DNA from: Verrucomicrobiota bacterium
Lineage (GTDB): Bacteria > Verrucomicrobiota > Verrucomicrobiia > Limisphaerales > J093
Direction: 5' to 3'
Length of the DNA stretch: 64,000 bases
Assembly (NCBI GenBank): GCA_022710935.1
Contig: JAKLFY010000026.1
Coordinates: 1-64,000 of the forward strand
Shown here piece after piece: positions 1,708 to 21,882 of this stretch (the stretch's first letter is position 1; the number at the start of each line of letters is the position of its first letter). The notes under the pieces were generated by a model, which was not told the DNA's origin, made no database searches, and worked only from the letters and a program-made list of their open reading frames with translations. A program made the position numbers and the translations under genes.

Positions 1708-3501
1708 TTATTTGGCAAACACCTGGAATTCCCAAATCGTGGGCGGGCGCGTCGCTTCGAGGATGTTCAGCCGCACGTGGCGCGCCTCGACGGGCGGGAA
1801 TGTGGTGGCGAAATCCGTGCCCGCCGTGGTGCCGGCGGTTGCGATCCTCCACGACTCGTCCGCCGTCATGCGATATTCCAATTGATATCGGGTCAGGCGC
1901 GGATCGAGCTCCCTGATTACCGCACGGGAGATGCTCGCGGGTTGGGCCAACTCGACCTCGATCCAGGCTTGCTGAACATCGTCCGCCGTCGCCCAGCGCG
2001 TCTCGGGATCGTCGTCCACCGCCTTGTCGGGACCAAACTGCGTGCCTCCGGGATGGACGTTCGACGCGGTGGCAGGCCGATGGGCCGTCAGCGCGCCGGA
2101 ACCAGCCGGAGCCAGGGGATTCCAGTGAAGACCGAATTCCGCGATGGCCGGCGGTGCGGCGGCCTGGCTGATCACCAGGCGCACCCGCTGGGCGGTCAGA
2201 GCCGGGAACCGGCGCAGTTGCTTGTGGCCGATGACCTGACCGGCAGTCACGCCACGCCACTGGGTGCCGTCGAGAACCTCGACTCGGTACTCCTGGACGC
2301 GTTCGCCAAGGGTGATGTCCTCCTGCAAACGCGCCACGTTGAACATGCGGGGATGACCCAGATCGAACTCGAGTTGGCCGTCGCGCGCGCCCCCAGCAGG
2401 CATCCAAAATGTGCCGAGGTCCCCGTCCAGCACGTTCTGCCCAGCGTGTGCGGAGTCACGGACGCTCGAAGTGGTCACCGCGGCCCCCGCAGCGAAGTTC
2501 GTCGCGCTCAACTGCCTCACGAACGCCCCGAATTCCCGCAGCCGAATGGCATCCGGGTCAGCGATCCGCCCCCGCCCATCGGGCGGCACGTTCAGGAGCA
2601 GCACCGAGTTCCGCCCCACGGATTTGAAGTAGATGTCGGCCAGCGTCGAAAGCGATTTGACCTTGGCATCCTCGGTCGAGTGGTAGAACCACCCGGGCCG
2701 GATCGAGACGTCGCACTCGGCCGGGTGCCACACCGACTGACCATCGCGTTCGACTACAGAAGACTCGTTTTCGCGCGCGACGCCTGATTCATTGCCGACC
2801 CAGCGGATGTCCGGGCCGCAGATCGCAATCAGGGCGTTGGGTTGAAGATCGCGAACAACCGCGTAAAAACCGGGCCAGTCGTATTCCTGGCGCTTGCCGT
2901 TGGGGCCTTCGCCGCAGGCGCCATCAAACCACACCTCGTCAATCGCTCCGTAATTCGTGAGCAACTCCCGCAACTGGTTGCGAAAATACTCGTTGTATCG
3001 GGGCGTATCGCCATAGACGGGCTGGTTCCGGTCCCAGGGCGAAAGATAGAGACCGACTCGCAAACCCCGCTCACGCAGGGCTTCGACCACTTCACGGACA
3101 ACATCGCCCCGGCCGTCGCGCCAGGGCGATCTCTTGACGCTGTGCCCGGTGAACTTCGATGGCCAGAGACAGAAACCATCGTGGTGTTTGGCGGTCAGGA
3201 TCAGAAGCCTCACCCCCGCATCATCCAGCACGGCGGCCCACTGGCGGGCGTCGAAATCGCTTGGGTTGAACAGCTTCGGATCTTCCTGGCCGTCGCCCCA
3301 CTCGCGGTCCGTGAATGTGTTCATCCCAAAGTGGGCGAACGCGATGAACTCGAGGCGCTGCCAGGCGAGTTGTTCGGGCGTGGGAACCGGGCCGGCGGCG
3401 AACGTGGCACTGGCGCACACAGCGAAGGCTGACAAACCGGCGATGCAGCTTCTGAAACGCGCACACGCGGACAACCATCGACAGCAGCAATCCAAGTTCA
3501 T
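1708..3501 (-). CDS. Alpha-L-fucosidase-like secreted glycoside hydrolase, family GH29, with discoidin-type C-terminal domain
   Basis: This 597-aa protein has an N-terminal signal-like segment (about residues 1-35). Family GH29 is recognisable from FIAFAHFGMNTFTDREWG (about 52-69), LTAKHHDGFCLWPS (about 102-115) and GLYLSPWDRNQPVYG. The block DEVWFDGACGEG carries the expected catalytic nucleophile Asp, about residue 193. The second half (about 330-597) holds F5/8-type-C-like segments such as SNVHPGGTQFGPDKAVDDDP and ETRWATADDVQQAWIEVEL, a carbohydrate-binding fold. The predicted role is removal of alpha-L-fucose from exported glycans in the periplasm or outside the cell. GH29 members with this short active-site domain can also be alpha-1,3/4-specific; substrate cannot be read from sequence. 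The oxidoreductase remnant follows 120 bp downstream. Confidence 0.9.
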   Translation of the reverse strand: MNLDCCCRWLSACARFRSCIAGLSAFAVCASATFAAGPVPTPEQLAWQRLEFIAFAHFGMNTFTDREWGDGQEDPKLFNPSDFDARQWAAVLDDAGVRLLILTAKHHDGFCLWPSKFTGHSVKRSPWRDGRGDVVREVVEALRERGLRVGLYLSPWDRNQPVYGDTPRYNEYFRNQLRELLTNYGAIDEVWFDGACGEGPNGKRQEYDWPGFYAVVRDLQPNALIAICGPDIRWVGNESGVARENESSVVERDGQSVWHPAECDVSIRPGWFYHSTEDAKVKSLSTLADIYFKSVGRNSVLLLNVPPDGRGRIADPDAIRLREFGAFVRQLSATNFAAGAAVTTSSVRDSAHAGQNVLDGDLGTFWMPAGGARDGQLEFDLGHPRMFNVARLQEDITLGERVQEYRVEVLDGTQWRGVTAGQVIGHKQLRRFPALTAQRVRLVISQAAAPPAIAEFGLHWNPLAPAGSGALTAHRPATASNVHPGGTQFGPDKAVDDDPETRWATADDVQQAWIEVELAQPASISRAVIRELDPRLTRYQLEYRMTADESWRIATAGTTAGTDFATTFPPVEARHVRLNILEATRPPTIWEFQVFAK

Positions 3502-3677
3502 CGGGGCACCATAGAGTTCTTAAACTGGAAATGCCATAGCGAACGAGTCCAGACGAGTCCAGTTCAGTCTCTCATTTTGGCTCCCATGAACCGCCTCGGT
3601 GTTCACACGTACGCCCCTTTCCGTGTTCACACGGATTCCCGGACGACGCGGCGCGGTGAAAGAATCCCCGTCCAGCA

Positions 3678-3752
3678 GTGCACAAGATCCTGATCGTGGA
3701 CGACGATGCGAGATTGCATGCGGCCGCCTTTGTAAAGAAACGTTTACTGTAA
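3678..3752 (+). pseudogene. Response-regulator receiver-domain scrap (first ~15 residues)
   Basis: A GTG at 3678 opens a short frame reading VHKILIVDDDARLHAAA and stopping at 3750-3752. The KILIVDDD block is the canonical first strand and acidic pocket of CheY-like receiver domains. Nothing of the rest of the domain follows, so this is at most a remnant, or a chance match. Confidence 0.35.
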
Positions 3753-3754
3753 AC
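3742..3754. promoter_or_regulatory. Short perfect palindrome upstream of the secreted-protein cluster
   Basis: GTTTAC-T-GTAAAC is a perfect 6-bp inverted repeat in an A/T-rich pocket of an otherwise GC-rich region, about 180 bp before the ATG at 3933. It could be an operator or a promoter-proximal site. No regulator is identified. Confidence 0.25.
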
Positions 3755-3932
3755 AAAACTTGACTTCAACGCTCGCACCAGTACCGTCGCCACCTCGCAC
3801 CCCTTAGGTCTCTGTGGGATGCCTTATGATACCATAGGCGGACCCGGATCGAGGGGATCGTATGACGAAAGAACGGCCAATAACCTCGTGCCGAAACGGC
3901 CTCTGGCAGGTGCCCCACAACGTTCTCACCAT

Positions 3933-5705
3933 ATGCAGAATTCCGCGCTCTGCCTCCTCATTGCGCTCCTGTTGCTGATCACGCCGAGCGCCCTGGGTCA
4001 ATGGCTCACCCAGCGAGTCGCGCTCCAACCTGGGTGGAACGCCGTCCATCTCGAGGTCAAGCCGGAACCCGGCGGGTGCGAACAGGTGTTCGCCGGCCAG
4101 CCGGTCCAGAGCGTCTGGAAATGGAATCGACGCTTCTCGACCATCCAGTTCACGGTTGACCCCGACACGCTGCTGCCCGAGAGCCCGGATTGGCTGGTCT
4201 GGTTGCCGCCGTCGGATCCGCGCGCCTTTCTGAGCCGCCTGGGAGCGCTGCAAGCCAACCAGGCTTACCTCATCAAGGTCGCCCCCAACGCCGCGCCGTT
4301 CACCCTGACCATCAAGGGACGGATTGTTCCGCCACGGATCGAGTGGTTTCCGAACGGCTTGAACCTGGTCGGTTTTCCCGTGCACCCCAACAACCCGCCG
4401 ACGTTTGCCGAGTTCTTCAAGTTCACGCCTGAGATCGACACGTCGAGGGGTTACGCCAACGAACTGTATCGCCTCGACACCCGGGGCATCGGTCAACGCA
4501 TTGTCCAACCGGCCCGTGACCGGATGCAGCGGGGCGTGGCGTACTGGATCGGTTGCGCCCAGGCGCCAACCCGCCTGTCCGCGCTGCACGTCACGCCCGG
4601 CAGCCCTGATGGACTGGACTTCGGCAGCTTGTTCACGCGCAAGGAATACACGGTGAAGAACACGCATCCAACCGAGAGCCGCACGGTCAGACTGCGCCAG
4701 CGGGCATCGGAAATCCCGCCTTTGGCCGGCGGATTTCCGGAGCTGGCCGGCCCGGTGCCGCTGGCCTATCTGGCCAGGAACGCCAGCAACCTCTGGGCAT
4801 GGGGCGAATTCCCCGAGGCGGGGCTCTCGCGTACCCTCGCGCCGGGAGACGAGTGGCGACTTTGGCTCGGCGTCCGGCGCCGCGATTTCGCGCCCTACGT
4901 GGCGCAGGGCACCAATGGCGCGACCTACCAGAGCCTACTCGAGATCACCGACGGGGCGGAGTCGTTGTTGGTCCGCGTGCCCGTCGTGGCGCGCAAGCCC
5001 GCCGCCATGGGCGCCGCACTGTTGAGCGGCGTGTCGGGCGAGCCGGCGGCTCACCACGAGGACGAGGGGCTCTGGGTCGGATCGGCGACACTCGACGAGG
5101 TGAATGTGCCGGCCTACCCCAGCGCCGACATGCAGGGCACGCCCGCCGCCGCGTCGTTCCGTCTGCTGGTGCATGTGGATGCCTACGGCCAGGCGCGATT
5201 GCTGCAACGCGTCGTTCTGGCATGGGACCCGACGCTGACCGATGCGCCTCATACCAACGGGACATACGCCGTCTACGCCGATGATCGGGCGGTGCCGACC
5301 GAAGCCACCGATGTGAAGCGCATCGATTCGGTGGCATTCCCGGTGATGGCGCCGGTGGCGTTGAGCGGAAGCCTCAGCAACGCGCTGACCGGCACCGTGA
5401 CTGTCGCGTTCGACGCCCCGACCAATCCCTTCCTGCATCGCTACCACCCGATGCACGACAACAAGAACTGGGACTTCGAGTCTTACACCAACGCCGTGGA
5501 AACGCGCACAATCGCGCGGAACCTCACGCTCACCTTTGACGCCGTCACCAACACCTCCGCCAGTCCTTACTATGGCGTCGACCAGTTGAGCGGCGTCTAC
5601 CAGGAAACCCTCACCGGATTGCGCGCCCAACCGGTTCTCGTCCGGGGCGCTTTCTCACTCGAACGCATCAGCCGGATCAATCAACTGCAAGGCATCATAC
5701 CATGA
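3933..5705 (+). CDS. Secreted protein of unknown function, first gene of the 3.9-17.4 kb cluster
   Basis: I chose the ATG at 3933 because it places a clean signal peptide first (MQNSALCLLIALLLLITPSA, cleavage near LGQ); the upstream frame has no signal features. The ~590-aa mature protein is rich in Trp, Pro and beta-type sequence (QRVALQPGWNAVHLEVKPEP; WFPNGLNLVGFPVHP; ITDGAESLLVRVPV). No catalytic motif was found. The repeated pattern of 'GWN/GLN plus hydrophobic plus P' suggests beta-sandwich modules. Its stop overlaps the next start (ATGA at 5702-5705), so it is translationally coupled to the tail-fibre-like gene. The family is not recognised; export is the only secure statement. Confidence 0.8.
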   Translation: MQNSALCLLIALLLLITPSALGQWLTQRVALQPGWNAVHLEVKPEPGGCEQVFAGQPVQSVWKWNRRFSTIQFTVDPDTLLPESPDWLVWLPPSDPRAFLSRLGALQANQAYLIKVAPNAAPFTLTIKGRIVPPRIEWFPNGLNLVGFPVHPNNPPTFAEFFKFTPEIDTSRGYANELYRLDTRGIGQRIVQPARDRMQRGVAYWIGCAQAPTRLSALHVTPGSPDGLDFGSLFTRKEYTVKNTHPTESRTVRLRQRASEIPPLAGGFPELAGPVPLAYLARNASNLWAWGEFPEAGLSRTLAPGDEWRLWLGVRRRDFAPYVAQGTNGATYQSLLEITDGAESLLVRVPVVARKPAAMGAALLSGVSGEPAAHHEDEGLWVGSATLDEVNVPAYPSADMQGTPAAASFRLLVHVDAYGQARLLQRVVLAWDPTLTDAPHTNGTYAVYADDRAVPTEATDVKRIDSVAFPVMAPVALSGSLSNALTGTVTVAFDAPTNPFLHRYHPMHDNKNWDFESYTNAVETRTIARNLTLTFDAVTNTSASPYYGVDQLSGVYQETLTGLRAQPVLVRGAFSLERISRINQLQGIIP

Positions 5706-7045
5706 CGGCACATCCAACTCCGAGATCTGCAGTGGCAGCCCTGTCACATCCGACACGATCACCCTCACCCGCTCTCCAGGCGCCCTCTCCCATCGGATGG
5801 GAGAGGGATGGGGTGAGGGGTCAGGCTCGCCTGCCCGCCGAACGCAGCAGGCAGCAACCGACCCAACACGGACGCCACCTACGGCACGGCGCGCGCGTGT
5901 TCTGGGTGGCAGCACTCGCCCTGGGCCTGCTGGCGGCGGCAGCAGTTCCCCTGATCGCGGGTGAGACCGTGCCCGCCGCGATCAACTACCAGGGCAAACT
6001 CACCGACAACCTGGGCAACGCCGTCAAGAGCGGGTACTACGAAATCCAGTTCCGCATCTGGAATGACGCGACCAAGAACGAAACCGCCAACTACATTTGG
6101 GGTCGGACATTCCCCTTGCACGTGGTCACGAACGGCATGTTCAATGTGCTGTTGACCAACGACGGCGACGTGCCGGGCAGCCCCGCGGTGAACAGCATCC
6201 TCGAGGCCTTCGCCGGGACAGACCGCTATTTGGGGCTGACCATCACGCGGAATCCCGACGGTGCCGTCACTTCGCCCGTGGAAATCAGCCCGCGCCAGAA
6301 GCTGGCCACGGCGCCCTATGCCATCCATGCCCATCAGGCCACTTGGGCGGACCACGCCACCACGGCCGACAACGCCACCCAGGCCGCCAGCGCCAGCTCG
6401 GCCTTGAAAGCCGACAACGCCACCAAGTTCGACAACATGTCCACCAGCGATTTTCTGATGGTCAAGCAGACTTCGCAGACGCTGGCCGGCAGCCTGACGA
6501 TTACCAACGGCGCTCTCACCGTTCGAGGCCAGACAACCGTGTCCGATACTTTCCACGCGGCTGCGGCCTCGGTTTTCGACGGGAGCATGATTGCGAACGG
6601 CAGCCTGTCGGTAGCCGGCAATGTGCTTGGCAGCAGCCAGGTCACCGCCACCGGCATGCTCAACGCCAACGGCGGTCTGAAGGTCACCGGCAACGTCCGT
6701 TTCGGCACTGACGCGCCAATTATCATTCGACGCTTTCATCTCGAGGACCAACCCAGCGGGGCTATTGAGAAGTGGTACAACACCGGGTATTCCACCACCA
6801 CGTGGTCGGCCGTGCTGGTCGGATTCAACTGCACCGGCGACTACTGGGAGAGCGGCACCAGTTCGCTGCTCCAGATGATGCTGTATCCGAACGGGAGCGG
6901 CGGCACCACCTGGCGCATTCTGTACACCGTCCGCCATCACTCAGACCCACTGAGTGCTATCTATGTGGACGTCATGTTCATCCGCAAGGAGCTCACTGCC
7001 GACGACCGGCCCACCCTGCACTACTTGCCCATGGAGAATCCCTAG
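5702..7045 (+). CDS. Exported tail-fibre-like / autotransporter-type repeat protein
   Basis: The frame opens at 5702 inside the upstream stop (ATGA). The first ~65 codons run through a palindromic repeat (5762-5819) and look non-native. An in-frame GTG at 5897 directly precedes a signal-like stretch (VFWVAALALGLLAAAAVPLI) and may be the original start. The mature part begins INYQGKLTDNLGNAVKSGYY, followed by FRIWNDATKN, WGRTFPLHVVTNGMFNVLL and a PYAIHAHQATWADHATTADN block. That arrangement is typical of bacterial proteins resembling phage tail collars or fibres. The middle is a low-complexity series of Ala/Asn/Thr/Gly repeats (about residues 215-330). The C-terminal ~110 residues (IIIRRFHLEDQPSGAIEKWY onward) look globular. 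Its role is probably surface or structural rather than enzymatic. Confidence 0.8.
   Translation: MTAHPTPRSAVAALSHPTRSPSPALQAPSPIGWERDGVRGQARLPAERSRQQPTQHGRHLRHGARVFWVAALALGLLAAAAVPLIAGETVPAAINYQGKLTDNLGNAVKSGYYEIQFRIWNDATKNETANYIWGRTFPLHVVTNGMFNVLLTNDGDVPGSPAVNSILEAFAGTDRYLGLTITRNPDGAVTSPVEISPRQKLATAPYAIHAHQATWADHATTADNATQAASASSALKADNATKFDNMSTSDFLMVKQTSQTLAGSLTITNGALTVRGQTTVSDTFHAAAASVFDGSMIANGSLSVAGNVLGSSQVTATGMLNANGGLKVTGNVRFGTDAPIIIRRFHLEDQPSGAIEKWYNTGYSTTTWSAVLVGFNCTGDYWESGTSSLLQMMLYPNGSGGTTWRILYTVRHHSDPLSAIYVDVMFIRKELTADDRPTLHYLPMENP
5762..5819. repeat. Nested palindromic repeat inside the 5' end of the tail-fibre-like gene
   Basis: Outer arms CCCTCACCC (5762-5770) and GGGTGAGGG (5811-5819) enclose inner perfect arms CCCTCTCCCATC (5783-5794) and GATGGGAGAGGG (5796-5807). 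This is the kind of REP sequence usually found between genes. Here it is read through as codons. Confidence 0.75.
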
Positions 7046-7324
7046 TCGCTCACTGCATTCCTGGCCCCGGAACGACAAACCTGCCGTCCAGTGAGGCGTT
7101 CCTCGAAAGCCGCCCAAACGACAACGGAGTTCAAATCCCAGATTCCTCGACTCATGAAACCTGCATTTGCTCGGCGCCGCGGGCGGAACTGGCCCCCTGA
7201 ACAACGGTTGAATGCGCACGGGGACCACGAACCGCTGCGGGCACGTCGCGCGCGGCAAGCCGCCTGCAAGCCGGCGCTCCGCGGCGCCTGGCGACCTCGC
7301 CTCCCGCGTGCGAAGGGGCGAAGC

Positions 7325-7356
7325 CTTTGGACTGCGTGCGCTTCAGCGCCGCTTTC
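7325..7356 (+). repeat. 32-bp repeat R3, copy a
   Basis: The core GGACTGCGTGCGCTTCAGCG followed by CCGCTTTCC is repeated in reverse complement at 42131-42162 with only a few differences (for example GTGTGC for GTGCGC). Both copies sit in non-coding repeat islands. Confidence 0.65.
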
Positions 7357-7436
7357 CATATCACGGTTCATGGCAAGCATGTTCGTGAAGACGGAACTCG
7401 GGCGTGCCGCCGTGACTGTTGACTTGGCTCGAATTG

Positions 7437-7526
7437 AACCGCGAGGTACGCGAAATGCGCGAATCCGGCGCTGTAGTCGAAAGGCATCCTGCCTTCTTTT
7501 TCGCGTGTTTGGCGTGGTTCGCGGTT
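7437..7526. repeat. Long imperfect inverted repeat (27-bp arms)
   Basis: The left arm 7437-7463 begins AACCGCGAGGTACGCGAAAT. The right arm 7500-7526 is its near reverse complement, ending TGGTTCGCGGTT. The loop is 36 bp. It lies immediately before the likely start of the giant gene and may act as a hairpin in the leader transcript. Confidence 0.65.
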
Positions 7527-7540
7527 GCCCTCCTGAACAG

Positions 7541-10500
7541 TTGCGTCCCGCCAAGGCCGCTCTGCTGCTGTTGATTCTCGGTCTTGCCAGCCTGTCCGCC
7601 CCGCTGGCGCGAGCGACGGATTACTACCTCCAAACCAGCTACCAGAACTACGCGTTCTCCCCAGGACCGCCCGGCGGCGCCTGCACGGATTATTTCAGCA
7701 CGACCGCCTCGACGCTCGTCTATTGCGGCCACATCCTCGGCAACACCAATACCGCCCGGCCATCGGGCGGCGGCTACGGCCTCGACGCGTCCGCGTTTGG
7801 ACAGCCGGTCGAAAGCCAGCAGGCCGACCTCGCGATCGGTGAAGTCATCAACCCGCCCCCCGGGGCCATCACGAGCGTGGCGCCGGCCAACTTTGTTCCG
7901 GTGAAATGGGGGGAGAACGAAGCGGCGTACTACGAATGCACCGAACCGCACGGCAGCGCGTTCTGGGTGCCCTCCACGGGCCAGATCATTGCGGCGCAAG
8001 CCAACAACATCGCGATCGTGTGGAACATGGAGGGCGGCACCACCTACCGCCAGGTGCTCAACATCAGTGCGGTTCCAGTCAAACGCCCGGCCCGGCTCTT
8101 CTGGACCGAGTCGCCCTACGACTCGCCGAAGGTCAACATGGGCGGCTTGTTCCCCGTTATCCACTACAACGCTTCAGTCTGGGCCCCCGTTCCGCAAGTG
8201 ACCACCTCCACCAACGGCGGCATCATTATCACGACCACCAATTACTCTTCGGGCGTTTGGCTGGACGACTCGAAGCAGCTTTGCGCCAAGGGTGTCTCCG
8301 GCTTGTTCGTCGTCGAGTACTACCAGGAAGGCAGCTACAAGCAGCAGGTCCAACCCGACGGCATCGAGGTGGTCGAGGTGCTCGAACCCAATCTCCAGTT
8401 GATCGAGGCCGATGTCGGGGCGCGGCTCAAGCCGGTCGACACCTATTGGGCCGATCTCGATGGCATCGACGGTCTGCTGCCCAATGTCACCCATGGCATC
8501 ACCGAAGGAACCGCCTACGTCCACAGCCAGACCGGTCCCAAGGACAACTGGGTCTTTGCCATCAAACGCACATGGAGCGAGCCGTGGACGCTCGAAATCT
8601 ACTGGCAACACAAGGGGCGCATGGGGGTACTGTGGCCCTACGAAGTCGACTGGTACTCGTGCGACTGGCCCCCCCACCCGCAACGCTACGTGCTTGGCGA
8701 CGATCCCCCCAACGACACCCCTCCCGCGTTGATCCCCACCACGCTGACGGCAACCCTGATGGAGGACATGGACCCCCCGTTGCACGCCGACCTCTCGAGC
8801 AGTGGCCGGTCGTTCACGGCCACCGAGCCCGGAATCTGCCTGCTCAAGTACACCACCGACGACAATATCTGGTTCGAGGTGGTCCAGACCATTCAGCACA
8901 CGAATGAGGACTACTACGACCTCGACCCCGCGGACTGGCCGATCGGGCAGGAACTGACGCCCGGGGACTACACAGCCCATGCCCTGCGCTTCGACGGCGT
9001 GGACGACTACGTGACGGTCAACCAGGGCTTCTTGAACGCGCTCACAAACTGGACAGTGGCGCTCTGGTTCCGCGCCGACCGGTTCGGCAAGGACCTCACC
9101 GTGCTCTACTCGGAGGGAGTTCCCTCCGTTACGTTCCAACTGGCCCTAACACCCAGCGGCCAGTTGAAGGCCCAGAGCTACAACAAAGTCAGCCGGACCT
9201 GGCATACGGCCACCACCACCAACGCCCCGGTGCAGACCAACCGCTGGCATCATGTGGCCGTGACCTACAGCGACGGCACGGACAGCGCCGGCACGGTGCG
9301 GTTCGACCTCGATGACTTCTCGTGGCAGACGAACCAGTTCCATCGCGTCAACCAGGACGGCACCAAACAGACCCTGTTCGCCGCCCAATCCGTGTCGGCG
9401 CCCACCCTGTTCTACAAAGGCAAGCTCAGTCACGTGCGCGTGTGGGACACCGCACTCACAAGCGACGAGGTGAAAACCAATCGGTTCATCATCTACCCCG
9501 ATACGGCGGATCACCTGATCGCCAACTTCCCGCTCAACGAGGGCGAGGGCGACGTGGTTAAGAACCTGGCCGGAGACCACAACGGCACCCTGAAGAACGG
9601 CCCCCTCTGGTCAAGCCGGGTTGTCCCCATCGGACAGTATTGGGCTGGTTTCCCCGGTTACATCCACGTGGCGGAAGGCGACCGCTACAACGCCAACCGC
9701 TACGAGTATCCGACCGAGGCAACGCCGGACGCGGCCTCGTATGTGTTCGGCGTGAACACCGGTCTCCTCGAAGTCTGGTGGGCCAACCGCAGCCGGCAGA
9801 CGGGCATGCCGGCGGTTTACTACCCCTCGCGGGTCCAGCGCTACAAGAACGTCTGGCCCACCGATCCGTCGGAAATCGTGATCGCCAGCGGCTTGGGCAG
9901 CGCCGGCAACTCGATCGACACAACCGCCGACGCCTTGCAGTTTCGGGGCATCTCATCCAGCTACGCGCGGGTGCCGGCCAACCCGCTCTTCAACGTGCGC
10001 AACCAGTTGACCGTCGAGACCTGGGTCAACCTCACCAACACGCAGAACAGTCAATTGCTCGTTCACAACAACGGCCAGTTCTACCTCGGTGTCGAATCGG
10101 GACAGGTCCTCGCCTTGGTCTATGTCACCTCAGGATACTACAGGAAGTACTTCGGAGTGATGCCCACCAACACCTGGGTGCACCTGGCACTCGTGTACAC
10201 CGGCTACGGGCTGGACGCGTACATGAACGGCCAGCACATCTACTACCTCAACACAGTTAACGAACCCCTCCGGGATACCGCCTCCGACCTCTACATCGGC
10301 CGCGCGGCCTGGGACGGCAATTACACCCTGGGCGCCATAGGCGAGGTGCGCGTCTGGAACAAGGCCAGGACCGCGGACGAAATCGCCGCCACCTGGCACA
10401 CCGCTTTGACGGGCCAGGAGCCCGGCCTCGTCGCCTGCTACCCGTTCGTTCAAACCGATGATCCCTATCACCTGCGCGACGCGGGGCCGTACGGCCTGCA

Positions 10501-13500
10501 CGGCATGATCCAGAACGCAGACTGGATCTCCTCGGCCCGGGTCATGACCGTGGCGGACCCTGTCCTTTTGAGTTCGCCTTCGATCTACTTTCAGAACGAC
10601 GCCTCCCTCCCCGGCTACAACCCCAACGAGGAGCATGCGCTCGTCCTCAGTGGCGTGGCCTACGCCCTGCGCAACGACCTCAACACGCCGACTTCGTCCG
10701 AACCGTACGTCCTGGTTGACTGCCTCGACCCCGCCACGGGGCGCCCGAGCATGGCCACCTTTCAAGTGCTGGCCACCAATGTATTCTACACATTCGATCG
10801 TTCGGGAATCGCCGGCAAGGCCATTACCCCCATCATGCCTTTGTCCGCCATGCCCCTGTGCGCCAACACCGACTCGCTGAACAAACCGCCCGCCTGGCGC
10901 GACCGGAAGTTGGGCTGGTGGGCGGTTTCGGCCGGCGACGACGACGGCCCCGCCGACGCCGTGATGCAGTTCTACTACCAGATGCAGCCAACGTTCTACT
11001 TCCCGGAACTGGCTGCGACCGCCCAGCCCGCCGTGGGCCAGGAACTCCCCTGGCTGCCCAACCCTTCCGAAAACGGCGGCACCACCGGCACGCCCGTCTC
11101 GGTCACGTATCACATCGTGTGGCCCGAGGAGGTGCCGGAATTGAAGCTCGGACAGACGCTCACCCTCCCCACGCACGGCTTGCCGGACATCTGGAACCAA
11201 CTCAGCGTGGACGTCGAGTACGACCAGTCGGAACGTAAGACTGAGCGCCCCAGCGTCACCCTCTTTGACCCGGTCGCCGACCGCGAGGTCAGCCTCTCGT
11301 ACGACGTCGTCAAAGAGATGATCGCCGCCGACCTCGCCCGGCAGGAAACCACAAGTTCCCGCATTCGCTTCCCCGACCTGCCGCCTTCGCTTTACCCGCG
11401 TCTGTTCTTCGACCACAACCGCGGCGATAAGCTGGTGCTCGAAGGCCAACGGGTCGAGACGCTCACGGGCGATGGCTACCTGTTGCTGAACCTGCTCGAG
11501 AACTTCGAGAAAGCCGCTGCCCGCGACATGGCCGGCGCCCTGGATACCACCCCGCGCAACGCCTGGAATACTGCCATCGAGGCCTTGCCCTCGAATCTGT
11601 TGCTGCTCGAGAAGGATACGGCCTACGTCAGGGCCGCCCTCACCGCCCGCCTCACCAACGGCGTGGGCTACGTCACCCTCGCTTTCAACAACAGCACCAA
11701 CCGAAATCAAGTCCCCACCGCGCAGCCGGTCAGCCTGAACGTGATCAAGGTCGTGCCCGAGCTCTATTCGGGCGAACTCGAAGTCATCTACCCGGACGAC
11801 GCGCTGGCCGAGCAACTCTCGATGCGTTACAGCGCCGACCTCGCGGGCATGATCGAGGAAGTCGAGTTTGAATGGCGCTGGGCCAACCCCGTCGGCGGGC
11901 TCGTGCCCAACGAGAACTTCGAGGGCAGCAACTGGATCGCCTACAACGCGACCAACGCCAACGAAGTCATGATTACCGGGGCGAGCGATTTCACCCTGAC
12001 GGACCACTATTTCGCTGTTCGATACCGCCCGCTCGACCAGCACGGCCTCACCGGCGACGCTTGGAGCGATTGGACCTATAACCTCGCGCCCGGCTGGGTC
12101 AAACGCGCCATGACCGGTATCAACCCCTTCGTCCAGATCTTCACCAACATGGTCGACAACGCGGTGGACACCCGGGTGAGCATGATCAGTCAGGCGGGCG
12201 GACCCTATGAAGGCGACATCGCCCTCAACCTGAACGCCGCCAGTTCGAGCGGGCTGATCGCCGTTTACCAGACCATCTTCAACCGCGCCAAGGCCTTTGG
12301 CTTTGCCACCGGCACAGATGACCCCAACCTCAATCAGACGCTGCTGTTCGCCGCAAGCCGTCTGCACGATCTCTACATGCTGTTGGGCAACGAGGCCTAT
12401 GCCGATGCCCAGGACCCGACCGTTGCCTTCCCGACCTCGTTGGCCCAGGACGAACACGGCGCTGAGGCCACCTCGATCTTCCCATTCATGAACCAGGTGC
12501 CCAACTTGCTCGAAGAGGAATTGGCCCTGCTCCGCGGGCGCGACGGCACGCTCGAACCCTCGGTCGAGACCTCGCCGATCTACAACCGCCTGATCTGGAA
12601 CTTCACGGCAGGCATCAACGGCGGCGAGCCAGCCTACGCCTACAACTACAACATCCGCGGCACCCCCACCAACAGCGTTGGCGCCATCCTCGCTGAGGAC
12701 GCCAAGCGCCTCTATCCGCAAGGCCATGGCGACGCCTGGGGCCATTACCTGAGCGCGATCAGCCCCTACTACGACCTGCTCTCCTTCGCCAACTTCCGCT
12801 GGCGAACCGATCCGGAGGCGATCCTGCTTGGCAATGCCCCGGTCAGTGTCGACTACCTCGATGAACAGAAGTTTGCGGAGACCGCCGCCGCCCGCGCCCG
12901 CACCGGAACCGAGATCGTCAAGCTGACGTTCCGCCAGTGTTATTCGGAGGATCCGGACGGCCGCCTGCCCGGCTACAGCGACACCGACTCCCAGCGCGCC
13001 TGGGGCCTGGGCGAGTGGGCCAGCCGCGCCGGCCAAGCGGCCTACTACGACTGGGCGGTCGCCAACTCGCTCATGATCGAGGACGTGACCCTGATGTCCC
13101 AGATCGGCGGGACGAATCTGCCGCCGGAAGGCATCCAGAAGATCGACCGCGTCTCGACGCCGGAGTTGCGCGAAATCGCCAGCGGTCTGCGCGACATCCA
13201 GAACCAGGTGGACAGCGCCAACGGCGGTGTCAATCCACTCGGACTGGCCCGCAACGTGGTTCCCTTCGATATCGACCCAACGGCCATTGACGCCGGGCAA
13301 ACCCACTTCGAACAGGTCTATGACCGCGCCCTCCAGGCGCTTTACAACGCGTGTGTCGCTTTCGACCACGCCCGCAACGCCTCACGCGAACTGCGCGCGC
13401 AGTCCGATTCGCTCTACGACCTCGAAGAATCGCTGGCCCAGAACGAAATCGACTATCACAACCGCCTGATCGAGCTCTATGGTTACCCGTACCCCGACGA

Positions 13501-15640
13501 CATCGGCGCGGGCAAGACCTACCCCCAGGGCTATGACGGCCCCGACCTCATCAACTGGCGCATCCTCGACCTCGAGAACCTTCTGGTCGATGTGCCCACG
13601 GCGGACGCGGACCCGATCGAAGTCGAGGTCCGCAACCTCATCTTCCTGCCGGGCAGCGACTTCGAGGGGCATGAATACGAGGATTACATCGAACTTGAAC
13701 ACCACACGGATACGTCGACCGATGTCGTGGGGACGATCCAGGTGTACGCCAACGAAGACGGTCTCCAGGTCAAAGACCCCGGCTGGACCGGCCACCGCCC
13801 CGCCCAAGGCGAACTCCAACTCGCACTCTCGGATTACGTCCAGACCTGGTACTCACTCGAAGCGAAGATGAGCGAGTACGAACAGGCCATGACCGAACTC
13901 GAGACGGAGATCGAGCACCGTTTGGCCGATTACGAGCGTTATCCCGAGGAATGGGAGGAAGACGAAGATGCCAAGAAATCCGAGAAGGCTACGATCATCG
14001 CAGTCACCTCTCTGAAAGGGGCCGCACGTGCGATTGATCTGGCCGCCAAGGCCATCAAGGAAACCGCTCATAAAGGGGCCGAGGGAATGCCCGCAATCGA
14101 AATGGGCGTCATTGCGCCTTTCCCCGTAGCCGAGACCGAAGTGGCCACCAAGCCGGCCGTGAGCGTGCCGGTCGAAATCGCTTATTGGGTGGCGCGAGTC
14201 AGCGCGGCCGTTCTCGAGGACGCCGCTGAGGCGACGGAGGCCGCTCAAAAGGTCAAGAACGTCAACCTCGAGACACTGCTGAAAAGCAACGAGTACTATG
14301 ACCTCTTGCGCTTCAACACGGCTGAGACGATGGACAAACTCAAGAGCCAGTATGTGAAGCAGGCGGAGCTCTTTGCCCAAGTCGAAGCCCTCTCCCAAAG
14401 CTATCAGCGCGTCGCCAAGCTTCTCGCCGAAGGCCAGCGCCTCCTCGCCGAACGTGGTCAGACCCGCGTCCGCGCCGCCCAACGCATCCAGTCGCAACGC
14501 TACGCGGACCTCTCCTTCCGCATCTTCCGCGACGATGCCCTGCGCCGCTACCAGAGCACGTTCGACCTCGCCGCCCGCTACACCTACCTCGCCGCCAAGG
14601 CCTACGACTATGAGACCGGCCTCCTCTACTCGGACACAGCAAAGACCGCGGGCAGTCGCTTTCTCGAAGACGTCGTCCGGGCGCGGCTCCCCGGACGGTT
14701 CTACGTCTGGCTGGGCACCCCAATGGCCGGCGGCCCCGCCGGCGAGCCCGGCCTGGCCGACATCCTGGCCCGGATGAAGGCGGATTGGGACGTTGTGAAA
14801 GGCCGCTTCGGCTTCAACAACCCGGATAATGAGACCAGCCGCTTCTCCCTGCGGAGCGAGCTGTTCCGCATCTCGCAATCCTCGAGCAGTGACGGCACGT
14901 GGATGCTGGCGCTCGAGAACTGCAAAGTGGCCGACCTGCATCAAGTCCCCGAGTTCCGCCGCTATTGCCGTCCGTTCACCGACACGACCAACGTCGAACC
15001 GGGCCTCGTCATCGAGTTCCCCACCTTCGTCATTGCGGGCAAGAACTACTTCGGCCAGGACCTCGCCGGCGGTGACAACGCCTACGATGCCAGCCATTTC
15101 GCCACAAAAATCCGCTCCGCCGGCGTCTGGTTCAGGAGCTACAATATCACCTTCAACACAAACCTCACCGGCGCCGGACTGGCCAACGAACCGCGCGTCT
15201 ACCTTGTGCCCGCGGGCGAGGATGTGATGCGCTCCCCAACCGGAGGCGCCGGAGCGACGCGCCATTGGACGGTTCTGAACCAGGCGATGCCGCTGCCCTA
15301 CAATGTGGGCGAGGCCGACCTGGACGATCCGGATTGGATTCCCGTCATCGACTCGCTCCGTGAACCGCTGGCGCGCATCCGCCGATTCGCCTCCTTCCGC
15401 GCTTACCACGACCGCGGACAGTTCGACGAGGCGGAGACCCACAACAACGGGCGCCTGGTTGGGCGCTCGGTCTGGAACACGCGCTGGCTGCTGATCATCC
15501 CCGGTCGAACGCTGCTCGCCGACCCGGTCGAGGGCATCGAACGGTTCATCCATGGAGCGCTTGTCAGCGGTAACCGCGACGGCAATGGCGTCGATGACAT
15601 CCTGATCTTCTTCCAGACCTACTCGATCGGAGGAGACTGA
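7541..15640 (+). CDS. Giant secreted LamG-domain protein with C-terminal coiled coil (~2,700 aa), function unknown
   Basis: The frame is open from 7091, but a hydrophobic signal (AKAALLLLILGLASLSAPLA, cleaved near ARAT) starts about 7553, just after a repeat. I therefore use an in-frame TTG at 7541; an upstream ATG at 7381 is the main alternative. Two concanavalin/LamG modules are visible. The first spans about residues 480-690 (LRFDGVDDYVTVNQGFLNAL; WTVALWFRADRF; GKLSHVRVWDTALTSDEV). The second spans about 790-990 (LQFRGISSSYARVPANPLFN; LTVETWVNLTN; GAIGEVRVWNKARTADEIAA). The remainder is large beta-rich and helical sequence without a known catalytic motif. Around residues 2080-2370 a charged helical region (for example MSEYEQAMTELETEIEHRL) should form coiled coils. 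The final ~300 residues look globular again. The protein is exported and probably cell-surface or extracellular. Its size, LamG pair and helical shaft suggest adhesion or a structural fibre, which is inference. Confidence 0.8.
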   Translation: MRPAKAALLLLILGLASLSAPLARATDYYLQTSYQNYAFSPGPPGGACTDYFSTTASTLVYCGHILGNTNTARPSGGGYGLDASAFGQPVESQQADLAIGEVINPPPGAITSVAPANFVPVKWGENEAAYYECTEPHGSAFWVPSTGQIIAAQANNIAIVWNMEGGTTYRQVLNISAVPVKRPARLFWTESPYDSPKVNMGGLFPVIHYNASVWAPVPQVTTSTNGGIIITTTNYSSGVWLDDSKQLCAKGVSGLFVVEYYQEGSYKQQVQPDGIEVVEVLEPNLQLIEADVGARLKPVDTYWADLDGIDGLLPNVTHGITEGTAYVHSQTGPKDNWVFAIKRTWSEPWTLEIYWQHKGRMGVLWPYEVDWYSCDWPPHPQRYVLGDDPPNDTPPALIPTTLTATLMEDMDPPLHADLSSSGRSFTATEPGICLLKYTTDDNIWFEVVQTIQHTNEDYYDLDPADWPIGQELTPGDYTAHALRFDGVDDYVTVNQGFLNALTNWTVALWFRADRFGKDLTVLYSEGVPSVTFQLALTPSGQLKAQSYNKVSRTWHTATTTNAPVQTNRWHHVAVTYSDGTDSAGTVRFDLDDFSWQTNQFHRVNQDGTKQTLFAAQSVSAPTLFYKGKLSHVRVWDTALTSDEVKTNRFIIYPDTADHLIANFPLNEGEGDVVKNLAGDHNGTLKNGPLWSSRVVPIGQYWAGFPGYIHVAEGDRYNANRYEYPTEATPDAASYVFGVNTGLLEVWWANRSRQTGMPAVYYPSRVQRYKNVWPTDPSEIVIASGLGSAGNSIDTTADALQFRGISSSYARVPANPLFNVRNQLTVETWVNLTNTQNSQLLVHNNGQFYLGVESGQVLALVYVTSGYYRKYFGVMPTNTWVHLALVYTGYGLDAYMNGQHIYYLNTVNEPLRDTASDLYIGRAAWDGNYTLGAIGEVRVWNKARTADEIAATWHTALTGQEPGLVACYPFVQTDDPYHLRDAGPYGLHGMIQNADWISSARVMTVADPVLLSSPSIYFQNDASLPGYNPNEEHALVLSGVAYALRNDLNTPTSSEPYVLVDCLDPATGRPSMATFQVLATNVFYTFDRSGIAGKAITPIMPLSAMPLCANTDSLNKPPAWRDRKLGWWAVSAGDDDGPADAVMQFYYQMQPTFYFPELAATAQPAVGQELPWLPNPSENGGTTGTPVSVTYHIVWPEEVPELKLGQTLTLPTHGLPDIWNQLSVDVEYDQSERKTERPSVTLFDPVADREVSLSYDVVKEMIAADLARQETTSSRIRFPDLPPSLYPRLFFDHNRGDKLVLEGQRVETLTGDGYLLLNLLENFEKAAARDMAGALDTTPRNAWNTAIEALPSNLLLLEKDTAYVRAALTARLTNGVGYVTLAFNNSTNRNQVPTAQPVSLNVIKVVPELYSGELEVIYPDDALAEQLSMRYSADLAGMIEEVEFEWRWANPVGGLVPNENFEGSNWIAYNATNANEVMITGASDFTLTDHYFAVRYRPLDQHGLTGDAWSDWTYNLAPGWVKRAMTGINPFVQIFTNMVDNAVDTRVSMISQAGGPYEGDIALNLNAASSSGLIAVYQTIFNRAKAFGFATGTDDPNLNQTLLFAASRLHDLYMLLGNEAYADAQDPTVAFPTSLAQDEHGAEATSIFPFMNQVPNLLEEELALLRGRDGTLEPSVETSPIYNRLIWNFTAGINGGEPAYAYNYNIRGTPTNSVGAILAEDAKRLYPQGHGDAWGHYLSAISPYYDLLSFANFRWRTDPEAILLGNAPVSVDYLDEQKFAETAAARARTGTEIVKLTFRQCYSEDPDGRLPGYSDTDSQRAWGLGEWASRAGQAAYYDWAVANSLMIEDVTLMSQIGGTNLPPEGIQKIDRVSTPELREIASGLRDIQNQVDSANGGVNPLGLARNVVPFDIDPTAIDAGQTHFEQVYDRALQALYNACVAFDHARNASRELRAQSDSLYDLEESLAQNEIDYHNRLIELYGYPYPDDIGAGKTYPQGYDGPDLINWRILDLENLLVDVPTADADPIEVEVRNLIFLPGSDFEGHEYEDYIELEHHTDTSTDVVGTIQVYANEDGLQVKDPGWTGHRPAQGELQLALSDYVQTWYSLEAKMSEYEQAMTELETEIEHRLADYERYPEEWEEDEDAKKSEKATIIAVTSLKGAARAIDLAAKAIKETAHKGAEGMPAIEMGVIAPFPVAETEVATKPAVSVPVEIAYWVARVSAAVLEDAAEATEAAQKVKNVNLETLLKSNEYYDLLRFNTAETMDKLKSQYVKQAELFAQVEALSQSYQRVAKLLAEGQRLLAERGQTRVRAAQRIQSQRYADLSFRIFRDDALRRYQSTFDLAARYTYLAAKAYDYETGLLYSDTAKTAGSRFLEDVVRARLPGRFYVWLGTPMAGGPAGEPGLADILARMKADWDVVKGRFGFNNPDNETSRFSLRSELFRISQSSSSDGTWMLALENCKVADLHQVPEFRRYCRPFTDTTNVEPGLVIEFPTFVIAGKNYFGQDLAGGDNAYDASHFATKIRSAGVWFRSYNITFNTNLTGAGLANEPRVYLVPAGEDVMRSPTGGAGATRHWTVLNQAMPLPYNVGEADLDDPDWIPVIDSLREPLARIRRFASFRAYHDRGQFDEAETHNNGRLVGRSVWNTRWLLIIPGRTLLADPVEGIERFIHGALVSGNRDGNGVDDILIFFQTYSIGGD

Positions 15641-15702
15641 GCGGAAGTGAAGAGTGGAGAGTGGAGAGTAAAGAGTGAGAAATGGTCTTCCAGGAGCCTG
15701 AC

Positions 15703-16545
15703 ATGAAACGCTTCTTCTTGAATCCCGCGCTGCCGCTGCTTGGCCTGGGCCTGGCGTTGAGCGCGCCGCCCTCCCACGCCGGCCTGCCTCAGCCCTTGTG
15801 CGTCTTCTACGGCCAGGCGCGCGATGGTTACGGACTCCCGTACCGCGCAGACGCCGACGTGATCCTCTTGCGCGGGACCAACGAAATTGCCCGCCAGACG
15901 ATCAGTCGTTCGCTCGCGCCCGGCGTCAACTTCGCCTTGTATGTCCACCTGGATGATGGTCGCGGAACCAAACCCTACTCTCCCCGCGCCGTTCGGACCG
16001 GCGACTCGGTGTCGATCCTCGTCCGGGACAAGGATGGGGTGAAGCCAATCATGGAGAGGCAACTGGTTCCGCCCGTGGGTTCGCCGGGCGACATGCTGCT
16101 ACTCAACGTCACCGCGGCCGAGGACAGCGATGGCGACGGCCTGTCCGATCTGTGGGAATGGGAGCTGATCGCCTGGTCCGAGGGCGCGCTGACAGGCCTT
16201 TGGGACGTTGATGGCAAAGACGATTTCGACGGCGATGGCATGTCCAACCGCCAGGAATACCAGGCCGGCACGTTCGCCTTCCTCGATTACGATGCCCTCT
16301 TCATCGAGGAGTTGATCCCCGCCGGCTACGGACGGCTGCGCCTCACCTTCCTCAGCGTCCCTGGCAAGACCTACAGCGTGTCCTGCGCCACCGACCTCGG
16401 CCAGCCCGCCTGGCAGCCGTGTGCCTTCTCCCTGACTGACACCGGCGTGCTCCAAACCGTGCCCGCCGAGGGTCCCGGCGATTGGTTCTCCCTGTACATC
16501 CCGATCGAAGAACCGGTACGCTACTTCCGATTGATCGCCGAATGA
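15703..16545 (+). CDS. Secreted protein with DxDGDG calcium-binding repeats
   Basis: I chose the ATG at 15703 because it gives MKRFFLNPALPLLGLGLALS, a clear signal peptide; a start 21 bp upstream is possible. The ~280-aa protein has an Ig/CNA-like front half and two thrombospondin-type-3/EF-like calcium loops, DSDGDGLSDLWEWE and DFDGDGMSNRQEYQAGT (about residues 143-185). After them comes a short C-terminal beta module (LRLTFLSVPGKTYSVSCATD) of the kind often found at the ends of verrucomicrobial secreted proteins. A run of 'gagagtggagagtaaagagt' tandem sequence lies just upstream (15650-15680). Its stop overlaps the next start (ATGA at 16542-16545), which supports co-translation with the PEP-CTERM protein. 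Confidence 0.85.
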   Translation: MKRFFLNPALPLLGLGLALSAPPSHAGLPQPLCVFYGQARDGYGLPYRADADVILLRGTNEIARQTISRSLAPGVNFALYVHLDDGRGTKPYSPRAVRTGDSVSILVRDKDGVKPIMERQLVPPVGSPGDMLLLNVTAAEDSDGDGLSDLWEWELIAWSEGALTGLWDVDGKDDFDGDGMSNRQEYQAGTFAFLDYDALFIEELIPAGYGRLRLTFLSVPGKTYSVSCATDLGQPAWQPCAFSLTDTGVLQTVPAEGPGDWFSLYIPIEEPVRYFRLIAE

Positions 16546-17363
16546 ACACCAAGTACTACGTCCCGTTGCTCGTCGCAGCCGCCATCTTCGCCCGCCCCGC
16601 CTCAGCCGCCTTCTGCTGGGACGATGCGGATCAAGACGCTTACGCCCAGCAATTCGCCCCCGGACTGAATGGAGGTGTTGGATTTCTGAAATGGGAGGAT
16701 CTTAACCCAGGCGACGGGACGACCTTCGGAGGCCCTTTCTTGGTCCCGGATTCATTCCATCCCGACGAACAGGCGCTGCGTGGACCCGATCATCGTTCCT
16801 GGGCCATATACGGCACCTCCGCGGTGGGGCGGGAGTTGGTAGATGAGCTTAGCAGCGGGACGTGGACATTCCTCGCGGCACACCATGTTAAGAATACCTT
16901 CAATATGGGATTCTCCGGCTTCAATCTGACTTCGGTGAAGTCTTCAGAGTATGCCGATTTCGCCGAGGGTGAACTCATTCGCTTTGGCTACGACGATTGG
17001 GATTCCGCCAACAAACAGGAGGGTGGCATCTGCTATTCCGTCAACTCCGGTCTCACTTACACCTTCTTGGGCGGTGCCGACTGGAAGGGATGCAGATTGC
17101 AGTACTCAGTCAGTTGGAACGGACAGGGCACGTACACATTGATCGTCGAGAACCTGGACTCGGAGGATGAGCCCATCAGGAAGACGATTCACACAGCCCT
17201 CCAGTCCGGGCCTGTCGCCATGCTCGGCACGGCAATCTACGGTGACGATCTCAACGCAGGGAGCATTGTATTTGACGCTTACGAAGTCATCCCGGAACCA
17301 GCCGGGGCGATGCCCGTTCTCGCGCTTACGGTGTTCGCGATGGCGCTGCGGCGGAGCCGTTAG
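16542..17363 (+). CDS. PEP-CTERM sorting-domain protein
   Basis: The start ATG at 16542 overlaps the upstream stop. The protein begins MNTKYYVPLLVAAAIFARPA, a signal peptide. It ends with a classic PEP-CTERM tail: VIPEPAGAMPVLALTVFAMA followed by LRRSR. Such tails direct exopolysaccharide-linked export through exosortase (family knowledge; no exosortase is in this window). The ~250-residue body is beta-rich (FGGPFLVPDSFHPDEQ; GYDDWDSANKQEGGICY; LIVENLDSEDEPIRKT) and not otherwise recognised. The stop codon TAG (17361-17363) lies within the first bases of the palindromic element at 17360-17599, so the native C-terminus may once have been slightly different. It closes the five-gene cluster. Confidence 0.85.
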   Translation: MNTKYYVPLLVAAAIFARPASAAFCWDDADQDAYAQQFAPGLNGGVGFLKWEDLNPGDGTTFGGPFLVPDSFHPDEQALRGPDHRSWAIYGTSAVGRELVDELSSGTWTFLAAHHVKNTFNMGFSGFNLTSVKSSEYADFAEGELIRFGYDDWDSANKQEGGICYSVNSGLTYTFLGGADWKGCRLQYSVSWNGQGTYTLIVENLDSEDEPIRKTIHTALQSGPVAMLGTAIYGDDLNAGSIVFDAYEVIPEPAGAMPVLALTVFAMALRRSR

Positions 17364-18100: not shown

Positions 18101-21100
18101 CTATTCATACCCGATCTCCTTCAAGTGGGCATCAAAGTCAGCCGGCAACGACGCCAGCGGTTCTTCGATGTTGCGCGCCGCGAAGCGCAGCATGTTGCGA
18201 AGCAGCCGTTCCGCCTGGGGAACCTCCCCGAGATGTTCGCGGATCAGCAGGGAATTCAGGATGAACTCGCCGGCTCCCAATCGATACACAGCCACCAGCA
18301 GTCCGGACTGGTAACCCTGCGAGGCATGGATGCCGCCGGCAACCGGATCCGCGGCAGGATCGATCCCGGCAAAGACAACATCGGGAATCAGCTCGCGGTA
18401 GTAGCCGTAATCCATCAGGCCGCCGGCTTGGAGTCCGTCGAAGATGGGATGCCGTTTGGCCCACTCATCAGAATGGTAAAGCCATCGGGCAATACCGCTC
18501 ACGCTGCCCTTGGTCTTGAGCGGCAGCCAACCGGTGGACTGGTTGCCTCTCGCGAAGGTGTCGGTCGTCAAGAAGATGACAGTCGAACCGCGAGCGATCC
18601 GCTGCGCCAGATCCTTGAACATGACGGCCGGGTCCACGGTGGGCGTGCCGGAAGCCAGGATCACTTCGCGCCCGGTCGGCTGGCCCGGAGAGTAGGCTCG
18701 GTGCCTGATGCCGCGCTCGGTGAGCCACTGGGCCAACGCAATGTCGTGAGTCATCAGGATGATCTCGGCTGCGACCTCCGGCATGTCCTCCGGGGCGACA
18801 TCCACGAAGAACTGCACCTCTTCACCACAGGCGGCTGCGCCTCTCTCGAACGTGGCAAGGAACCGGTACGCGCCCGGCGGTCCGTCGATGATAACCTCCT
18901 CGGAGAAGACTGGCTGGACCATCGGCGGCTCGGGCTTGCCCTTCGGATCGGCAATGTTGACAGTGATCGTCTTTGCGAAAACTCGAGTGAGGTTCGGTCC
19001 GATGACTTCGAGGCGGACTGGGTATTCGCCTGGGGACAGGACGTCTTCGTTGGCAAGCACTGCTTCGAGTCGCACCGGCATTTTGCGGTAAACATTCACC
19101 GGCTCGACAAACAAGCACCAGCGCAGCGGCGCCCACGCGTCAAACATCGCGTCGGTCGCGCCTGGCTTCAGTTCGCGGAACGTCGTCCAGACGCCCTCGG
19201 CGGTCATACCCTGGTCCAGAGTGCCGGTGAGGCTGTGGCCGATGACGTTCGGGTTGGCGCGGATGGCATTGATGCCGAGCAACCGCTGGCCAGCCATGCG
19301 GGCAAGCGATTGACTGAAGAAATCTTCCGGTCGGCCAAAGACTTCGTTCAGGCGATACCGCTGCCAGTCGGCGAGGTACTGATCACGCCAGCTCTGATAG
19401 AGGCGGGCGTCCTCGACCTCGGTCTTGCCAGCCTGCTCGTACCATCGGCAGACACGCAAAAGGTCGATGGCGCTGCCGATGCCATACTCCGAAAGCCACA
19501 CCGGCTTGCCGTTGCCGCCCAGGGTGCGCAACGTGCGGATGACTTGGGCCGTGTGTGGCACGCGCTGGTAAGGATGCTGATCGCTCAGGATGTCCTCCCA
19601 GACTGTCGATCCCGGATTGCTGATGCTGCCAATGGCCCTCTCGGTCATCCCGCTGGGAAACTGCACGAACGCCGCGCGGTCGGGTCTGGCGGCCGGCCTC
19701 ATCAGGCCGTAGCTCCACTGGCCGTTGGGATTGCGCTCGATCGCAAAGTCCTTTTCAGCGTCCCAGGTTTTGCCCGACGCGGACGTCACCTTCACCGAGA
19801 ACGCCGTGGTATCGGCGCCGTAGTTGCCGTTGCCCCAGCCACAGACCGAATCGATGGTATCACCGGCCTTGACTTCGATCGTTGCCGAGTACTTCGTTTC
19901 GGGCCCCCTCCCCTCGAGATTGATGACGCCGTCGAAGAGCGAGTCCCCGTTGTGGATCACGTGCAGGTCGGTCGTGGCAGCCTCGGCGATGCTCCGGAAG
20001 ATGGCCGAATACTCGACCTTGTCATCCGAAGGCGCGGTCCAGCGGACGACGGCATACTCGCCGTCGCGGCCCGGGTGAAAGGCGATCTGACCGGGCTGCC
20101 AGGTGATGCCGAGAGCCCGAATCACGTGGTCCGTGCTGTTCCGCGTCACGCAAGGATCGATTCGGTCCACGGGCCGCCAGACCTCGATACCCGCCGTGCC
20201 GCCGGCGTGGTCGAACCTCCCGCTGTTGAGCAGCACGACGCGGGAATCATCCAGCTTGCGGACGTCTGGCAGAACGCTGACCGCGTGGCGGAAGACGGCC
20301 CCGTCAGAGGTCTCATTCAACAGGCCCCAGATCGCGATGCACGGGTGGTTCCGATCCCGGCGGATCATGCCAAAGACCGATTCGTTGTAGCGTTCCTTCA
20401 TCCGTGGTGAATCGGCGAGGCACCAGCCGGCGTATGACTCCGCGTAAACCATCAATCCAAGCTCATCCGCAAGGTCGAGCTGATAGCGCTTGGGAACGCC
20501 AGCAATGAACCGGATGGCGTTGTAACGCATCATCTTCTGGTTGATCAGATCCCGTCGCAGATAGTCGGCGTCGTGCGGCATTTCGAGGCCGATCGGACAG
20601 CAGTTGCCCGTGTGCGAGCAGCGCAGGTAAATCCGTTTCCCATTGAGGCGAAAGGCGCCGCCCTCGATTCGGAAATCCCGGAACCCGCACCGGACGGAGT
20701 GCTCGTGGAACCCTCCGCCAACTGACGGGGCGCCGGACGAACCGGCGCTCACCCTGGCCGTCACGCGATAGAGAAACGGATCGTCCAGATTCCACAGGTG
20801 CGCGTCGTCCACGGACAGCGCGGTCTCGACAAGCGTGTCGCCGACCTTGAATTCGGAACGGAGGTCCGTGGTCGCCAACGTTTGACCCGTGGCTGCCGGA
20901 GCAACGGCAAGGTGAAGGCTTCCGCACACCGCTGAGTCTCCGGCGTTGCGTATGTTCAACTGCACACGGATCTGGCCGGTCCTCCAGTCCGGCCGCACAA
21001 AGAGGTCCTCGACGCGAACCGCGGGCACGGTCAGCACCTCGACCGAATCCCAGATGCCGCCTTGGTTCCACGCGCTGCCGGAGGAATAGGGCAGGGCTTT

Positions 21101-21601: not shown

Positions 21602-21882
21602 AGGGCTTTCTGCGCGAGTGTAACGAACGCGCGCTGAGGATGCCAATGCCAACTCGACACAACACGTGACGGCGATCACTCGACTCCACAGACGTGCAAT
21701 GGGGAATGGAGTCGGTCATCGAACGTGACCACGTCAACGCGGTGCGAATTCGGTGCGTGTCCGAGTCTCGCTGCCGAGGCTGGCTGCGTTGCATCTTTCC
21801 AGAGAAGGCGGTCCAATCCCGCTCTTTTCGATCGCCTTTTCTCTCCAATCGGCCTTGAGTCACCGGCGAACAGCAAACGAAA

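Follow-up and report, generated by a model that had tools for sequence, protein, structure and literature searches.

A giant verrucomicrobial protein predicted to resemble the Tc-toxin A subunit is encoded in a conserved cluster of apparently exported proteins

The closest described counterparts of the gene cluster reported here are the A subunits of Tc toxins (TcA; TcdA1, XptA2, and YenTcA), giant proteins with a long-helix channel, a C-terminal TcB-binding fold, and target-binding modules outside the channel, together with the TcB/TcC polymorphic toxins (SpvB, TcdB_midN, and RHS). The largest Tc survey that we found, in which A subunits were sought with sequence profiles, assigns 96.4% of C subunits to Proteobacteria and 3.2% to Firmicutes (PMC7861908), and in Yersinia entomophaga nearly all of the toxins secreted together, including YenTc, have no signal sequence and exit by lysis (PMC10847048). 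The present cluster lies at positions 3933 to 17363 of a 64,000-nucleotide stretch (the window; contig JAKLFY010000026.1) of the 7.5-Mb draft genome of an uncultured Verrucomicrobiota bacterium. It comprises five open reading frames (ORFs), P1 to P5, all on the plus strand and each with a signal-peptide-like N terminus, as a first-pass annotation of the DNA had noted. From its structural model, the giant third protein, P3, very probably has a TcA-like fold. P3 is TcA-like but not a Tc toxin; we do not class the cluster as one because tests for two features, a PF18276 score above the cut-off and TcB/TcC genes, were both negative here.

Residues 1650 to 2849 of P3 were modeled with AlphaFold2 (AF2) from 71 sequences at a mean predicted local distance difference test score (pLDDT) of 77.7, and the model contains helices of 59, 85, and 150 residues plus a beta-rich C-terminal domain. 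When it was compared with the PDB using Foldseek, the top 18 matches were all TcA (E values of 4.7e-7 to 1e-2), and the next match had an E value of 2.0. VIA-align placed model residues 400 to 1197 on residues 2008 to 2516 of TcdA1, spanning the long-helix channel as well as the TcB-binding domain, and aligned 147/179 residues with the isolated TcB-binding domain (6l7i_A; 3.8 Å, Z 8.1); the global root mean square deviation (rmsd) from TcdA1 is large because the long helices and domain angles differ. Profile alignments by hhalign between P3 and canonical Verrucomicrobiota TcAs are collinear and fall in the same place (P of 0.001 to 0.002, versus 0.78 for a P1 control), and PF18276 (TcA_TcB_BD) has subthreshold matches within two P3 homologue ORFs. 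Family-averaged hydropathy of the helical hairpin is maximal at its tip, as in TcA but more weakly. The first-pass annotation had called the giant protein shaft-like, with which the long helices agree, and did not recognize the combination of proteins as a system; the shaft itself is structurally of a known kind, resembling the Tc-toxin A subunit.

The TcA likeness is barely visible to sequence searches. Against the PDB, P3 returned only LamG or generic coiled-coil matches, whether searched as a single sequence or as a profile, Pfam searches of 35 P3 family members gave no name for the core, and searches of PHROGs and a viral fold library yielded LamG and tail matches plus one Mimivirus protein. 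P3 is not a known TcA overlooked by annotation, because PF18276, searched across 387 genomes of the phylum, identified clear canonical TcAs in a single genome. Canonical TcAs scoring far above the PF18276 cut-off are rare in Verrucomicrobiota, occurring in G081, G003, and G415 (loci L084, L085, L172, L175, and L176). The P3 1650-2849 model has a single viral structure match, to Mimivirus LCMiAC02 protein A0A481Z1I0 (E = 1.3e-5). A phage tail was set aside as no other phage genes were seen in the cluster, and an S-layer was considered and likewise set aside.

P3 differs from TcA in its near lack of sequence identity, in its signal-like N terminus, and in its LamG, PA14, or Calx-beta N-terminal modules. 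The two LamG domains, as labeled in the first pass, are confirmed here (PF13385, 4.7e-42), and in P3 relatives modules of the PA14, Calx-beta, FG-GAP, propeller, or immunoglobulin (Ig) type take the place of this part. By a simple scoring rule rather than SignalP, signal-like N termini are present in 70/88 P3 proteins (2/88 internal control segments), as well as in 50/66 P1, 38/41 P4, and 31/33 P2 proteins, and TcB-type proteins encoded beside P3 have them too. P3 family proteins thus probably leave the cell by a route other than lysis, unlike the Y. entomophaga toxins.

The P3 core is matched at E<1e-100 in 41 of 97 genomes (the window's own and those of order relatives), patchily within the order, and in the regions around 40 of these matches the order and orientation P1-P2-P3-P4 recur. 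Scanning a single genome for each species yielded at least 544 confirmed P3 relatives; the best 80 of these are from Verrucomicrobiota, Lentisphaerae, Hydrogenedentes, Nitrospirae, Geobacteraceae, Acidobacteria, Gammaproteobacteria (including named isolates), and a Lewinella metagenome-assembled genome (MAG; Bacteroidota), with some MAG taxon labels being doubtful. Chiayiivirga flava DSM 24163 and Wenzhouxiangella sediminis XDB06 are among the cultured relatives. Among loci with sufficient flanking sequence, P1 is upstream of P3 in 55/59, P2 is detected in 25/59, P4 is downstream of P3 in 39/100, and P5-like proteins occur in 4/100; the P1-P3-P4 order is maintained across phyla at about 20 to 45% identity. 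The synteny across the order and the position of P1 indicate that the gene set is more than a chance arrangement, and the core P1, P3, and P4 likely form one exported device. The single five-gene assembly proposed in the first pass is therefore reduced to a conserved unit of these three, which do co-occur elsewhere, whereas P2 is optional and the PEP-CTERM-like P5 is a local add-on. Its suggestion that the set is undescribed agrees with our finding no description in the open-access literature. A gene family is common to the flanks of 17 loci (L122, at 2972-3991, and 16 others), mostly upstream of P1; the member tested is a PPIC-type prolyl isomerase, which would fit with the folding of exported giant proteins. 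A second locus in the window's genome (L063, contig C34, 5244-15757) has a 367-amino-acid (aa) gene, P1, P3, and a P4 homologue in order, with its P3 in two overlapping frames and without a middle part present in the relative L151; this P3 copy looks disrupted or misassembled.

The place immediately downstream of P3 is shared by two types of protein. The N-terminal domain of P4 (P4N; about 105 residues), traced with a hidden Markov model (HMM), is present in 51 of the 66 genes directly downstream of P3 but in only 4/399 other nearby ORFs; because these same sequences served to refine the HMM by iteration, 51/66 is slightly favorable, although the contrast with 4/399 is still large. P4N proteins are 189 to 1,879 aa long and differ in the modules at their C-terminal ends (propeller, Calx-beta, Ig, cadherin, RTX, and TSP3), the TSP3 calcium repeats of P4 itself being confirmed (5.5e-7), in keeping with the first-pass label. 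A TcB/TcC-type protein fills 7 of the remaining 15 places (7/66). Such neighbors are found in 14/100 P3 loci, usually less than 60 bp away, and in one P3 clade (Shimodaira-Hasegawa support, 0.999) they are downstream in 14 of 15 members, mostly directly adjoining P3. They contain SpvB, TcdB_midN, and RHS repeats, in most of them PxxxxDxxG is found near position 2,100, and their C-terminal ends are poorly conserved and variable; they resemble TcB/TcC polymorphic toxins in these respects, but are fused B-C proteins, about 2,300 aa long, that carry a signal-like N terminus. The Lewinella MAG member (L159, 13978-20121) has a VanY-like D-Ala-D-Ala carboxypeptidase domain at its end, which hints at a bacterial target. 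The window's P3 is outside the TcB-bearing clade, and P4 occupies the TcB place here. Several RHS-repeat ORFs of 1,300 to 4,300 aa in the window's genome (contigs C185, C186, C79, C39, C15, C60, and C257) were rejected as P3 partners, as they lack SpvB/TcdB domains and are unlinked.

P1, the constant partner that sets P3 loci apart from those of TcA, has a conserved NPFxHxYHPDHDN motif and is modeled as an all-beta protein (pLDDT 83.8); a profile search matched no PDB or NCBIfam family. Its PapD/ASH-like Ig domain gives best rows at a Z of ~8.8 (~8.5 for PapD-like) with an rmsd of 2.3 to 3 over ~100 residues, which is near background. Because the Lewinella P1 ends in a type IX secretion system (T9SS) sorting domain, P1 is probably extracellular. 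A chaperone-usher pilus was considered and set aside. P1 shares this one predicted domain with PapD chaperones and has further beta domains, and no usher or pilins were seen in the cluster, although an usher was not searched for. P2, described in the first pass as tail-fibre-like, has a weak match of its N-terminal domain to Bdellovibrio mosaic adhesive trimer (MAT) fibers (NF053851; E = 2e-5), well below the family cut-off (24.3 bits versus 60). The PEP-CTERM label for P5 relies on a motif seen by eye (IPEPA, a hydrophobic stretch, and RRSR), with no match to an NCBIfam HMM for this sorting signal, but the genome has three exosortase genes.

The explanation that we favor, and regard as fairly probable given these models and neighborhoods, is that the cluster encodes a Sec-exported, TcA-like device for translocation or display, partnered by P1 and by a cap or cargo encoded downstream. 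P3 would be the shaft, distantly related to the Tc-toxin A subunit, with swappable N-terminal lectin or adhesin modules that may bind the target surface, a long-helix region that may form an oligomeric, membrane-inserting channel, and a C-terminal domain that may dock the partner. P1, conserved and exported, would be its partner in assembly or anchoring. The docking-end protein would come from the gene next downstream of P3, a TcB/TcC cocoon in one clade and a P4N-domain protein in others, including the window, where P4 may dock on P3; P2 could be an accessory fiber and P5 an accessory surface-anchoring protein. With a TcA-like shaft and a TcB/TcC-type RHS neighbor in a sister clade, a translocation device is no less likely than a passive surface structure, and we put the chances that cargo is translocated in this organism, rather than the device serving display or adhesion, at about even.

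Several observations weigh against this explanation. The VIA Z values of 8 to 10 are in the range reached by unrelated helical folds, and we accordingly place weight on the Foldseek specificity, the single-domain match, the collinear hhalign result, the PF18276 hits, and the hydrophobic tip. PF18276 has no match in the window's genome and its cut-off is not reached by the P3 family, and the alpha-helical shell and neuraminidase-like domains of canonical TcA have no Pfam match in P3, of which the model spans only residues 1650 to 2849. The predicted P1 fold match is generic. TcB/TcC is absent from the window's genome (searched with PF12256 and PF03534), so any cargo here is only putative, and many P4N C-terminal parts are propeller, Ig, cadherin, or RTX modules, which are more display-like than toxin-like. 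These last two points, together with the T9SS tail on the Lewinella P1 and the PEP-CTERM-like P5 with its exosortases, would also be expected of a TcA-derived adhesion or display scaffold, a syringe turned into an anchored stalk carrying lectin and beta modules, with only the TcB clade injecting. We consider this possible but rather unlikely, as the hydrophobic channel tip and TcB-binding-like domain are conserved also in clades without TcB.

The weak sequence similarity to TcA and the unrelated long-helix proteins that VIA lists at similar Z could instead reflect an adhesive fiber whose long coiled coils mimic TcA without any evolutionary tie to Tc toxins. This is improbable, with Foldseek separating TcA from any other coiled coil by more than 2 orders of magnitude, the TcB-binding domain matching on its own, and TcB/C neighbors in one P3 clade. 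That the proteins are separately acting, secreted polysaccharide binders adjacent by chance is suggested by the LamG domains, nearby carbohydrate-active enzyme genes (such as that for a GH2-type protein at 18101-21679), and the patchy occurrence within the order, but is largely refuted by the cross-phylum conservation of P1-P3-P4 order, and we regard it as extremely improbable.

P3 represents a family, TcA-like in predicted structure, that is hidden from such sequence profiles and has hundreds of candidates in several phyla; its members appear to be Sec-exported, and most lack toxin partners. The family bears on the origin of the Tc syringe, on any role the syringe had prior to or apart from insect toxicity, and on how giant proteins exit the cell. 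We raise, more tentatively, the idea of widespread, undescribed, exported nanomachines of TcA descent, in which a constant P1 and interchangeable P4N-tagged proteins or a TcB/C cocoon would stand in for the classical toxin logic, one shaft being usable in general for delivery or display, with exchangeable ends for aiming and payload. Direct tests are offered by the families of P1 and P4N and by the slot that TcB and P4N share.

Coordinates of the cluster are given in Table 1. The P1 frame is open from 3819 to 5705, with ATG 3933 preceding the signal-like MQNSALCLLIALLLLITPSALGQ, and that of P5 from 16482 to 17363, with an ATG at 16542. The P3 frame (7091-15640) is open from GTG 7091 onward, although the initial ~150 codons are a translated dispersed intergenic repeat; since homology begins only near residue 153, and the signal-like stretch comes after TTG 7541, this TTG is the likely start, giving the size of ~2,700 aa estimated in the first pass. 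The repeat (7154-7520, between P2 and P3) has 46 matches in the window's genome at 74 to 94% identity and belongs to a family with at least two sub-elements of ~50 to 150 bp each, which adds the false N-terminal extension to the P3 frame. Of the ATGA couplings noted earlier, those at P1/P2 (5702-5705) and P4/P5 (16542-16545) are present, whereas the P2/P3 and P3/P4 junctions have no such overlap.

Table 1. Features of the P1 to P5 cluster in the window
Feature	Description	Position	Strand	Basis
P1	590 aa, signal-like N terminus, conserved all-beta partner of P3	3933-5705	+	
P1 Ig domain	PapD/ASH-like, residues 213-358	4569-5006	+	predicted structure
P2	signal-like N terminus, putative trimeric fiber, optional member	5702-7045	+	
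P2 region	weakly like Bdellovibrio mosaic adhesive trimer N-domain	5957-6211	+	
P3	~2,700 aa, signal-like N terminus, TcA-like	7541-15640	+	
P3 adhesive part	two LamG domains (about 8975-9481 and 9956-10387)	8975-10387	+	
P3 core	family-wide, residues 1160-2849	10568-15637	+	
P3 long helices	channel-like (13304-13480, 13811-14065, 14168-14617)	13304-14617	+	model
P3 hairpin tip	hydrophobic, PxxxxG	around 14066-14167	+	
P3 C-terminal domain	matches TcdA1 TcB-binding domain	14819-15628	+	model
P4	signal-like N terminus, TSP3 calcium repeats (~16222-16272), C-terminal beta module	15682-16545	+	
P4N domain	in P4	15778-16107	+	
P5	exported PEP-CTERM-like protein, local accessory	16542-17363	+	

Elsewhere in the window, the product of 35686-38094 matches the hydrazine synthase alpha middle domain (3.1e-22) and is probably not an anammox enzyme, and 54042-55844 encodes an M60/enhancin-like metallopeptidase (1.4e-45), a family associated with mucin-type glycoproteins.
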